Origin: Candidatus Methanoperedens sp.
Lineage (GTDB): Archaea > Halobacteriota > Methanosarcinia > Methanosarcinales > Methanoperedenaceae
Length of the DNA: 41,608 nt
Direction: 5' to 3'
Assembly (NCBI GenBank): GCA_026552855.1
Contig: JAPMTX010000148.1
Location: 1-41,608 of the forward strand
Position 1 is the first letter of the stretch; every line of letters begins with the position of its first letter. The notes below the pieces were generated by a model. It was not told the origin of the DNA, searched no databases, and was given only the letters and a program-made list of their open reading frames with translations. A program made the translations under genes and the position numbers. This document shows, piece by piece, positions 3,617 through 41,608 of this stretch.

Positions 3617-4519
3617 ATGAATAACACGCTCACAGATCGCTACGGCAGGGTTATAAAAAGTCTTCGCATCTCTATAACTAAAAGATGCAACCTGAACTGC
3701 ATCTACTGTCACCAGGAAGGGGAGAACAGTAATACCGGGCAGGAGATATCAGGAGATACAATCGCAAAGATAGTAGCCTCAGCGACTGGATTTGGTGTAG
3801 ATAAGGTAAAGTTCTCAGGAGGGGAACCGCTGTTGCGGAGCGATTTTGAGGATATAATAGCTGCGCTCCCGGAATTAAAAAATATCTCAGCTACAACTAA
3901 CGGCATTCTCCTGTCGCAGCGTGCTGCCTCTCTTGCAGACAGCGGTCTTGACAGGGTGAACATAAGCCTCCCATCGCTGAACAAAGAGCACTACGGAGCC
4001 GTAACAGGCTCACCGCAGGCATTTCCCAGGGTGCTTGAGGGTATAACTGCAGCCCTTGATGCCGGATTGGTCCCTATCAAACTTAACATGGTGCTTTTAA
4101 AAGGCATCAACGCCTCTGAGATCGATGATGCTATCAGTTTTACAGGAAGGTATGGAGGGGATGTGATATTGCAACTGATAGAACTCATGAACTTTAAAAA
4201 TACGGAGCGGTTCATAGTTGACATAGACGGCGTGGAGAGAATGCTTGAGTCCAGAGCCTCTCAGGTCAAAGAGCGGCTGATGCACCGCAGGAAGAAGTAC
4301 TTCATAGACGGGGTCGAGGTCGAGCTTGTCAGACCCATAGATAACTCCAGGTTCTGCGCCAACTGCAACCGTCTGCGCGTGACTGCCAGTGGAAAGTTGA
4401 AACCCTGCCTTATGAGGAATGATAACCTGATCGATGTCGGTGAGGGTGCTTCTCCAGAAGAGATCAAAGAACTGCTTAAAAAGGCTGCAGGGATCAGGGA
4501 GCCATTCTATAAGGGGTAA
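3617..4519 (+). CDS. moaA: GTP 3',8-cyclase MoaA (molybdenum/tungsten cofactor biosynthesis)
   Basis: A 300-residue radical SAM enzyme making the first step of molybdopterin synthesis, GTP to 3',8-cyclo-7,8-dihydro-GTP. The N-terminal SAM cluster motif is CNLNCIYC (about residues 24-31), followed by the SAM-binding KFSGGEPLLR. The C-terminal second cluster is visible as CANCNRLR and CLMR, with the usual 13-residue spacing. Length is typical for archaeal MoaA. It stands alone on the plus strand; no other moa genes are in the window, although a tungstate transporter and a ModE-like regulator about 10 kb away serve the same cofactor. Confidence 0.95.
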   Translation: MNNTLTDRYGRVIKSLRISITKRCNLNCIYCHQEGENSNTGQEISGDTIAKIVASATGFGVDKVKFSGGEPLLRSDFEDIIAALPELKNISATTNGILLSQRAASLADSGLDRVNISLPSLNKEHYGAVTGSPQAFPRVLEGITAALDAGLVPIKLNMVLLKGINASEIDDAISFTGRYGGDVILQLIELMNFKNTERFIVDIDGVERMLESRASQVKERLMHRRKKYFIDGVEVELVRPIDNSRFCANCNRLRVTASGKLKPCLMRNDNLIDVGEGASPEEIKELLKKAAGIREPFYKG

Positions 4520-4580
4520 ATATACAATTAAAAGTTATGAAAATCGATATCTATAGCAGCTTATTCAACATCAATAAAAA

Positions 4581-4600
4581 CCGAAAACTATTTAAATATC
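4581..4600 (+). promoter_or_regulatory. BRE/TATA promoter of small RNA element copy 1
   Basis: CCGAAAACTATTTAAATA reads as BRE plus TATA. It lies 42 bases before the first base of the copy 1 stem (4623), placing the expected start almost exactly at the stem. The same CCGAAAACTAT string precedes copy 3 on the other strand at 18773-18763. Confidence 0.6.
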
Positions 4601-4620
4601 CTGTTCGATAATGGACGAAC

Positions 4621-4705
4621 TAGATAAGCGGGTTTCTATTTTAAAGATACCACCCACTCCCTAACCCTCCACTTTTACCCGCTTATCCTACTTATCTTTA
4701 ATAAG
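4621..4705 (+). ncRNA. Candidate small structured RNA, copy 1 of 3
   Basis: Arms GATAAGCGGGT (4623-4633) and ACCCGCTTATC (4677-4687) form a perfect 11 bp stem that closes a 43-base loop. The loop has a U-run (CTATTTTAAAG) and then a C-rich tract (CCACCCACTCCC followed by CCCTCC). The strand is chosen from the TATA box at 4588-4597. After the stem comes CTACTTATCTTTAATAAG, itself a small hairpin and related to the 3' flanks of copies 2 and 3. The 3' arm ends exactly before the stop codon of the regulator on the other strand, so an RNA running on would be antisense to that mRNA's 3' end. Not recognised as a known RNA family. Confidence 0.5.
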
Positions 4706-5029
4706 GCGTAAAATCCACTGGGAGAGGGGTTCGCAGTGCTGGGGTACACATTCAAGAGTACAGCCTGTGCAGGGGGAGAACATATCCCCGACCAGAAGCA
4801 AACTGAAATCCTTAACCTGCGGTTCCACTTTCTCGACATACTTTATGCGGAACGTCCTTGCGCCCTTATCAGATTCCTGTTCCCTGCTGATTATCCCTTC
4901 TTTTTCGAACTTGTCGATTATGCGTGAGCATTTGCGGCGGTCTATCTCAGCCTTTTTCCAGAGTTCGTTCTGTAAAATCCCTTTTTTCCTGGATTTTATT
5001 AATTTCAGGACTATCTCTTCGGCTTCCAT
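4688..5029 (-). CDS. Winged-helix regulator with C-terminal four-Cys motif
   Basis: A 113-residue protein. Residues 1-75 form a winged helix of the archaeal MarR/Lrp-like type (GILQNELWKKAEIDRRKCSR, FEKEGIISRE). The C-terminus holds CTGCTLECVPQHC, four cysteines that could bind zinc or an Fe-S cluster, so the protein may sense redox or metal. It starts one base after the Lsm gene stop, indicating one operon. DNA targets are unknown. The first gene at the window start is also a winged-helix regulator with a C-terminal Cys cluster. Confidence 0.8.
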   Translation of the reverse strand: MEAEEIVLKLIKSRKKGILQNELWKKAEIDRRKCSRIIDKFEKEGIISREQESDKGARTFRIKYVEKVEPQVKDFSLLLVGDMFSPCTGCTLECVPQHCEPLSQWILRLIKDK

Positions 5030-7138: not shown

Positions 7139-7246
7139 TGCCCAGGACGGGATTCGAGCCCGTGACCTCCAGATTTCTCAGGAGGCATGCGCCTCTTCAG
7201 TTTTACCCTATGAGTCTGGCGCCCTAACCAACTAGGCCACCTGGGC
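7139..7246 (-). tRNA. tRNA-Met (CAT), elongator type, with a 34-nt intron
   Basis: On the minus strand the acceptor arms GCCCAGG and CCTGGGC, a D arm, anticodon stem CCAGA/TCTGG and a T arm with GGGCTCGAATCCC are all present. Discriminator A is at 7139; CCA is not encoded. The anticodon loop reads CTCATA, then an intron (7208-7175), then A. CTCA/TGAG forms the 4 bp central helix, with 3-nt bulges TAG and AAA on opposite strands, a textbook bulge-helix-bulge at the usual 37/38 site. The intron folds on itself through GAGGC/GCCTC. The mature sequence CTCATAATC is the archaeal elongator Met signature, not the initiator. Confidence 0.95.
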
Positions 7247-18678: not shown

Positions 18679-18740
18679 GAGCAGGCATGGATAGGAGGTG
18701 GGAGTGACGTCTAAAAACAGAATTAACGCCTGCTCACTAT
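18679..18740 (-). ncRNA. Candidate small structured RNA or purM leader element, copy 3 of 3
   Basis: On the minus strand GAGCAGGC (18735-18728) and GCCTGCTC (18686-18679) form an 8 bp stem around a 41-base loop. The loop has a U-run (CTGTTTTTAGACG) and then CACTCCCACCTCC, which contains CACCTCC, identical to the archaeal 16S anti-Shine-Dalgarno core. The promoter string CCGAAAACTATATTTA begins at 18773, 38 bases upstream, and matches that of copy 1. The 3' flank CCTATCCTAATCATAAAC resembles that of copy 2. The purM ATG follows at 18630, so it may be a 5' leader element as well as a free RNA. Confidence 0.5.
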
Positions 18741-19026
18741 GAGTATGAGTATCATAGTAAATATAGTTTTCGGTCATTTCAGCTCAAGAGGGAGCGCCGA
18801 TGCATGGCGGTTATGGTGATGTCCGTACTGTAATAAAGTCGCCTCTCGATACCGGTTCTGCGGTATTTTGTTTTAATATACGCCTTATAAAATTTATTAT
18901 ATATTTTTATTTTATTAAATACGTCTACCGCCATTGTTCATGGGATGATTTATATACCTGCTGATATTCTCACTGCCTGAGCCCTTCCCCAAAACTATTT
19001 TATTTGATAGTAACTACAAGGAGACA
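18741..19026. other. Gene-free stretch between purM leader and hisF
   Basis: It holds the copy 3 promoter (minus strand), a hairpin ATACCG-N6-CGGTAT (18849-18866) followed by a T-rich run that looks like a plus-strand terminator without an obvious gene before it, AT-rich sequence, and TTTATATA at about 18949-18956, a TATA box for hisF giving a leader of roughly 50 bases. A 54-codon plus-strand frame from 18800 has a ribosome-binding-like GAGGGAG but an AT-biased tail and is not called. Confidence 0.5.
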
Positions 19027-35917: not shown

Positions 35918-35940
35918 TCAGAAAAATATATATATAATGG
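35918..35940 (+). promoter_or_regulatory. BRE/TATA promoter of small RNA element copy 2 and rtcA
   Basis: CAGAAAAATATATATATAAT reads as BRE plus a strong TATA box. It starts about 39 bases before the first base of the copy 2 stem, the same spacing as in copies 1 and 3, so transcription should begin at the stem and run on into rtcA. Confidence 0.6.
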
Positions 35941-35956
35941 TAATCATAATGATATA

Positions 35957-40293: not shown

Positions 40294-40964
40294 GCACCTT
40301 AATTCTTTTTTCCTTTTATTAGAAGCTTAATATAATCATTCGGGTGGGTGGCGAAGGTTAACAACAATAGCAGTTGCTAAAAATCGCTCTGTATTATATG
40401 ATTGACGAGTAAAAAATATTTAAGCGCTTTTTGATTTTTCATCCGCAACGTTTATATACGAAGGTGTGGTACTTAGGGAAGCTCGATGACCAGGAATCTG
40501 GTTATATGTAAGCTGCGAAAGTCAGGAAATATGCTGGTTTTCACATTAAAAATAAATGAACTTGTGTATAAAAAACCATACACGAGGGAAAGAGTTATAT
40601 ACGACAAATTACATATATGGAGCTTCCTGTGTGGTAACAGGAATGTTGTGTTGTTAAAACACGGCAATTAATTATTACCATATTAATTCATGGTCAAAAT
40701 TTGGCGTCGGCCCCGATTATAGGACAAACCTGAACATGAAGGGCTGTCTTCCAACCATGATACATAAAATGGAGACAGGAACGTAGTTTCTCGTCTGACG
40801 TTGACATGACAGTTCGGTTAATTCCAATCGATAGATGGGAATTAACAAGGAACTATTGTACCTTAATATAATAGTTCCTCCTAAAATTCCGATAGTTTAA
40901 GACCTCGCATTTATACGAGGACTAAATCTAATATGTGTGCAGATATCAACTGAGATATCAAACA
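40294..40964 (+). promoter_or_regulatory. rRNA operon promoter region and 16S leader
   Basis: GTTTATATAC at 40450-40459 is a strong TATA box and probably the rRNA promoter, giving a leader of about 480 bases; ATATTTAAG near 40418-40426 is another candidate. The leader has several perfect hairpins: CTTGTGTAT/ATACACGAG (about 40550-40580), TTCCTGT/ACAGGAA, GTTAATTCC/GGAATTAAC (40817-40825/40838-40846), AGGAACTATT/AATAGTTCCT (40848-40857/40870-40879) and CCTCG/CGAGG near 40903. They fit rRNA leader structure; the long processing stem cannot be tested because the 16S 3' flank is outside the window. Confidence 0.55.

Positions 40965-41608
<644 letters not shown>

Follow-up and report, generated by a model that had tools for sequence, protein, structure and literature searches.

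Promoter-linked hairpins of the Methanosarcinales as a candidate family of small RNA genes, a subset of them with MsvR-type boxes

What are the three hairpins that stand, each behind its own BRE/TATA string, between the genes of a Candidatus Methanoperedens contig, and are they the source of an RNA? The window analysed, 41,608 nucleotides long, makes up contig C91 (JAPMTX010000148.1) in an assembly of 3.4 Mb (GCA_026552855.1), and an earlier sequence-only reading of it took the three for expressed RNAs of a small family. The answer developed here from comparison of sequences, to which as a whole we give about an even chance, is that the hairpins may be small stand-alone RNA genes of one family whose products act in trans, most likely by binding protein, with the box-bearing subset under the control of MsvR. 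The relevant parts of the window, with the BRE/TATA strings by direct reading, are the following.

4581-4596 (+): BRE/TATA string of copy 1, with TATTTAAA at 4589-4596
4604-4619 (+): inverted repeat TTCGATAATGGACGAA of copy 1, a candidate site that fits the MsvR binding pattern TTCGN7-9CGAA
4623-4687 (+): copy 1 hairpin, stem 4623-4633/4677-4687 of 11 bp, loop of 43 nt with a U-run and CCACCCACTCCC
18758-18773 (-): BRE/TATA string of copy 2, with TATATTTA at 18765-18758
18736-18758 (-): imperfect palindrome ACTATGATACTCATACTCATAGT in the TATA-to-stem interval of copy 2, a possible operator with a counterpart in L020
18679-18735 (-): copy 2 hairpin, stem 18735-18728/18686-18679 of 8 bp, loop of 41 nt with CACTCCCACCTCC
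35919-35934 (+): BRE/TATA string of copy 3, with TATATATA at 35927-35934
35943-35953 (+): inverted repeat ATCATAATGAT in the TATA-to-stem interval of copy 3, a possible operator; similar repeats are present in L017 and L019
35958-36021 (+): copy 3 hairpin, stem 35958-35969/36010-36021 of 12 bp, loop of 40 nt with a U-run and ACTAACCCCCACTCCCACTCCCC

Rereading and refolding of the three copies returned the coordinates, stem lengths and loop lengths of the sequence-only reading, and the stem of copy 2 becomes 10 bp, with a loop of 37, if G-T and T-A pairs are added inward. Each copy folds better than 200 of 200 dinucleotide shuffles (z -4.25, -3.84 and -5.29 for copies 1, 2 and 3), and the order TATA, spacer, CACTCCC, a pattern derived from these same copies, occurs three times in the window and in none of 100 shuffles. 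From the start of the TATA box to the stem is 34 nt in copy 1, 30 in copy 2 and 29-31 in copy 3, and in each copy this interval holds an inverted repeat, imperfect in copy 2, that the sequence-only reading had missed. The 3′ flank once thought common to the three, TAATCATA, is shared by copies 2 and 3 only; copy 1 lacks it and by eye it is absent from the wider family. By ORFs and Pfam all three copies are intergenic: copy 1 has a MoaA-type gene (moaA) on one side and a small winged-helix gene on the other, with the next downstream gene on the opposite strand, copy 2 is just upstream of a PurM-like AIR synthase gene, and copy 3 lies between an MCP-domain ORF and rtcA, just upstream of the latter. 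Two other features of the window may be recorded. A tRNA match at 7139-7246 (-), 108 bases to a 71-position model, is probably an intron-containing tRNA gene, with ARAGORN in its bacterial setting reporting none, and at 40965-41608 (+) an archaeal SSU rRNA gene begins and is cut by the window end.

The family is larger than the three members first counted. Two covariance models were made, R1 from four type-1 copies and R2 from 26 seeds of equal length, in some of which the loop was padded with N; both also weakly match the antisense strand of good copies, and a cut-off of 1e-5, used in one collection, drops the antisense matches but also weak true members such as copy 2. At E<=1 R1 hits 49 of 60 relatives, and when 60 R1 places were inspected by eye all but six shared the plan, many with other stem sequences (alternative stem pairs seen are GATGGGCAGG/CCTGCCCATC, GACGAGCGGG/CCTGCTCGTC and GTGAGCGGG/CCCGCTCAC); L100, L106, L129 and L132-L134, judged not or hardly members, were excluded from the seeds. 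In the genome that contributes the window R2 has 21 matches at E<=10, of which 14 are sense-strand at E<0.02. The idea of a local cluster, which a strict TATA...CACTCCC search might suggest since it returned only the three window copies from this genome, was dropped in view of those 14. Copies 1 and 3 match R2 at 2.3e-10 and 3.6e-9, and copy 2, the most diverged of the window copies and weak to the family model, at 1.63. Copy 2 has a clear counterpart in another genome (L020 in G027), and its start, ATAGTG(A/G)GCAG, is common to copies on contigs C39, C11, C126, C197 and C122 of its own genome (L144-L147 and L149), which make up a sub-family with stem ATAGTGGGCAG; the loop of the C197 copy contains CCACCTCCTATCC, resembling that of copy 2.

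Methanoperedens is placed in the Methanosarcinales (NCBI), and across that order R2 matches 174 of 185 genomes at E<=0.01, and 116 of the 117 high-quality ones. The genus itself, with 31 genomes, has 289 matches, an average of about nine per genome, a part of them perhaps antisense. The 11 genomes of the order with no match at E<=0.01 are six of g22, two of g23, G074, G147 and G174; the eight of g22 and g23 are all of 1.3-1.8 Mb, and theirs is possibly a loss on genome reduction. In a sample of 196 genomes of the phylum, matches are present in 26 genomes of the order and, outside it, in seven of eight from a single other family of its class, and the other 162 had no family match, kinship for 143 of these being taken from list order. 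A search of named genome contigs with the family pattern matched 24 stretches, 22 of them in archaeal records (Methanoperedens, Methanoperedenaceae, Methanosarcinales, Euryarchaeota or other archaeal records) and two in bacterial ones, which are taken as chance. Complete genomes presumed from their size to be Methanosarcina each yield between three and five matches at E<=1, and in some of these copies the loop has two or more C-rich units. Some family members stand in tandem. A divergent hairpin with loop ACTAACCCCTAATCCCC, directly after an apparent tRNA 3′ end (L129 / L279; G001:C5, about position 276348), is possibly an exotic member, and in one genome of the order a HEARO RNA (RF02033, E 6.7e-21; L188:972-1211, minus strand) occurs near a family member.

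The family consensus can be written aTGaGCgGG - T-run - tAaCCCCCACTCCCCAA - CCcGCtCAt. Its loop is a U-run plus ACUAACCCCCACUCCCC, an unpaired pyrimidine core, and about 14 consecutive positions of the loop are more than 80% conserved; this figure, like the promoter, T-run, box, ORF and G-U counts below, is for loci chosen by model score and by the author, not at random. Some members from the order carry their C-rich unit more than once in the loop. The transcripts would be some 60-80 nt long and would act in trans, with the stem as a clamp that may offer a partner the loop, in which a U-run precedes at least one CCCCCACUCCCC-like unit. The copies differ in their promoter elements, the box-bearing set probably being under MsvR. 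Because the unpaired pyrimidine core is long and conserved and its units are repeated, the favoured partner is a protein with affinity for U/C-rich single strands, giving a small RNP or a sponge; we put this slightly short of an even chance, and consider it likelier than pairing with a few mRNAs.

Ranked second, and a real if lesser possibility, is that the product is a trans antisense RNA that would block translation by base pairing of its C-rich loop to G-rich ribosome-binding sites. Precedent comes from the same order, with masking of ribosome-binding sites reported in passages of PMC5867862, PMC6560208 and PMC3510493 for the Methanosarcina mazei RNAs sRNA41, sRNA154 and sRNA162, the second of which is reported in passages of PMC5867862 and PMC6560208 also to stabilise mRNAs. 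The loop core CACUCCCC does resemble an anti-Shine-Dalgarno sequence, and copy 2, which contains CACCTCCTAT, pairs with gene starts slightly better than its shuffles in the smaller of two start sets (six of 60 as good; 25 of 60 in the larger). Four other loops, however, are no better than shuffles, with 55-60 of 60 at least as good in the larger set and 47-60 in the smaller, whereas the tail of 16S rRNA, as a control, was equalled by only two of 60 in the larger set. These tests are crude and weak: the sets comprise 251 and 76 starts called by simple rules, and in the 251 an SD-like word is present in 23%, against 20% inside genes. Further points against antisense pairing are that the octamer complement GGGGAGTG is not enriched before ATG, six of 75 occurrences being so placed and many being the antisense of the copies themselves, and that about 14 conserved positions exceed what simple SD pairing needs. 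A single fully complementary target was also sought and the idea discarded: in three genomes there are 24 near-complements of the core with up to three mismatches, about 18 of them the copies themselves, against 13 sites for the reversed core pattern. Among the near-complements that are not copies, one falls within a coding frame and another precedes an ATG in G001.

That the RNAs would be made from promoters of their own is suggested by the sequence upstream. Full eight-letter matches to the TATA consensus start 28, 29 and 30 nt before the stem in 21, 18 and 19 copies, that is in 58 of the 97 copies with enough upstream sequence (98 loci), with seven more at 27, four each at 25 and 26, and 0-3 at other distances; 24 box-less entries and five box-bearing ones have no full match within 20-60 nt. 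The fixed promoter spacing described from three copies is family-wide, with its peak at 28-30 nt. Since archaeal transcripts begin some 25-30 nt downstream of the TATA box, the stem is where the RNA would be expected to start. A TATA centre 27 nt before a start is given in part of the MsvR study (PMC3729527). At the other end, 77 of the 98 distinct loci have a T-run in the 45 nt that follow the stem, against 33% of random stretches, and ORFs of at least 120 aa are overlapped by only seven of the 98, against 71% of random placements.

The positions of copies 2 and 3, just ahead of the purM-like and rtcA genes, would suit a cis-acting 5′ leader of the riboswitch or attenuator kind that controls the gene downstream. 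That alternative is improbable: the gene downstream of copy 1 is on the other strand, a same-strand ORF starts within 200 nt in only 30 of the 98 loci, and in the tandem pairs printed each member has a TATA box of its own. The varied neighbours and independent promoters argue instead for action in trans.

The stems of the three window copies differ and yet pair, which had been read as the mark of selection for RNA structure, and the wider family bears this out. Among 94 distinct sequences, in an alignment fitted to the model, nine of 11 pairs have changed on both sides and 93.4% of cells pair; double-change cells number 180, where shuffles give 60.9 and slid controls 10-29, and since the sequences are related these comparisons with shuffles are not treated as probabilities. 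With the 26 seeds alone, aligned by MAFFT after padding, eight of 12 pairs are double-changed, in 55 cells against 19.3 in shuffles, and the count of double-changed pairs and further pair types are not above shuffles, 135 and 445 of 500 reaching them. RNAalifold finds eight of nine pairs supported by covariation. The nine inner pairs have 20 G-U and no A-C cells, which indicates RNA and the sense strand; with all 11 pairs counted the two kinds are nearly balanced (23 G-U, 19 A-C), the strand signal being confined to the inner nine. A DNA element with no RNA product, whether a repeat, cruciform, G-quadruplex/i-motif or mobile repeat, would account for the palindromic arms, the G-rich complementary strand and the presence of several copies, some in tandem, but it is very improbable given the excess of G-U over A-C in the inner stem, the fixed distance from the TATA box, and arms that covary while the loop stays conserved. 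A Y-RNA-like RNA bound by a Ro60/TROVE protein would likewise have a terminal stem and pyrimidine-rich loop, a likeness of architecture only, and is rejected, as TROVE (PF05731) is present in none of 40 relatives while the same search was positive in one of 14 control genomes. The covariance-model search of relatives that the sequence-only reading had proposed has thus found further homologues, covariation and the same promoter, and its interpretation of the hairpins as expressed RNAs is supported, with expression itself something we infer.

The small stand-alone RNA genes envisaged here may not all be controlled alike. MsvR is described in part of PMC3729527 as a redox-sensitive repressor, the M. 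acetivorans protein binding when reduced, with the inverted repeat TTCGN7-9CGAA in promoters as its binding pattern, and a test with rpoK reported there found TTCGN8CGAA by itself insufficient for binding. In copy 1 and its relatives a TTCG-N8-CGAA box abuts the stem. Of 114 distinct copies 24, among them copy 1, have such a box in the 60 nt that precede the stem, against 64 of 8610 random windows, a share biased upward because R1 was seeded from box-bearing copies; two of the 24 are from another family of the order. Carriers in the genome of the window are on C91 (copy 1), C150, C39 and C11 and, by reading, also C126 and C197. The window has two occurrences of the pattern, one at copy 1 and one at 40339; neither copy 2 nor copy 3 has a box, and both carry other inverted repeats in that place. 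The ATCATAATGAT-like repeats that copy 3 and type-3 copies hold in the TATA-to-stem interval form a second class, found by a loose pattern in nine of the 114 distinct copies. In another family of the order two hairpins (G034, L103) with unusual stems have TTCG-N8-CGAA boxes close upstream.

The putative regulator is at hand. The genome encodes a 251-aa MsvR-like protein in which Pfam recognises HTH_5 and V4R, and 49 nt before the ATG of its gene is TTCGTACAAAAACGAA. All 31 Methanoperedens genomes have an MsvR-like gene, the match in G018 being split with stops, and a box-type site is present in the msvR promoters of the other 30 (30 of 30). In most box-bearing copies of one printed set the TATA box stands at a greater distance from the stem than in copy 1, which would put the inverted repeat itself inside the transcript; in copy 1 and its closest relatives the box is upstream of the expected start and would not be transcribed. 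The latter arrangement disfavours the box as a 5′ RNA hairpin, and we read it as a DNA operator. Copies with the box next to the stem, and only that subset, are probably repressed by MsvR in reduced cells and released by oxidants. The known MsvR operators of M. acetivorans and Methanothermobacter have the same inverted repeat, and the msvR promoters of the genus share the motif; the family box, a candidate operator, differs from them in adjoining a putative RNA gene, downstream of the TATA box.

A structured RNA in 116 of 117 good genomes is likely to be basic to the biology of methanogens and anaerobic methane oxidisers. Methanosarcina is genetically tractable, and with three to five matches per presumed genome the function could be tested by deletion. 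If the MsvR link is true, an RNA would be expected among the outputs of that redox regulator. The fullest version of the preferred reading, which for now we hold as doubtful, is of an order-wide archaeal small RNP or sponge in which a stem-clamped U-run/C5ACUC4 loop captures a single-strand RNA-binding protein, with different operators on different copies and one set released by oxidants via MsvR.

The lack of any described class for these RNAs in the sequence-only reading is in keeping with Rfam 15, in which nothing matched over the hairpins at the gathering score in the window or at E<=1 in 4400-4900, nor any family at E<=0.5 in 20 family loci. Among the matches listed from the literature no paper is on these RNAs; earlier detection as an unnamed transcript is possible. 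M. mazei sRNA41 is, in passages of a review, a small intergenic RNA of the same order with reported action on ribosome-binding sites and, compared by description only, could be a family member. In sRNA162 and sRNA171, according to part of PMC3510493, some 40 nt of single strand mask an RBS. sRNA162 is there given as 191 nt with three stem-loops and a linker between SL2 and SL3, and as restricted to Methanosarcina by its authors' BLAST; the family spans the order and has one stem with a C-rich loop, and the plans differ, a single hairpin against three stem-loops. Nine cold-induced conserved sRNAs of Methanolobus psychrophilus are reported in part of PMC5378194. Family members could be among them. 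Further afield, the LhrC and RsaE type sRNAs of Gram-positive bacteria have several copies per genome, C-rich loops and stress control, and in these respects, by description only, they are like the family; they belong to another domain of life, and the pairing with SD sites is unsupported for the family loops, copy 2 in part excepted. The sponge RNAs of CsrB/RsmZ type carry repeated binding units, GGA, in their loops, and the repeated loop units of the family would fit titration of a protein in the same way, though these units are pyrimidine-rich rather than GGA and there is only one hairpin. If the RNP or sponge proposal is true, a principle like that of CsrB or the Y RNAs would have had a separate origin in the methane-cycling archaea.
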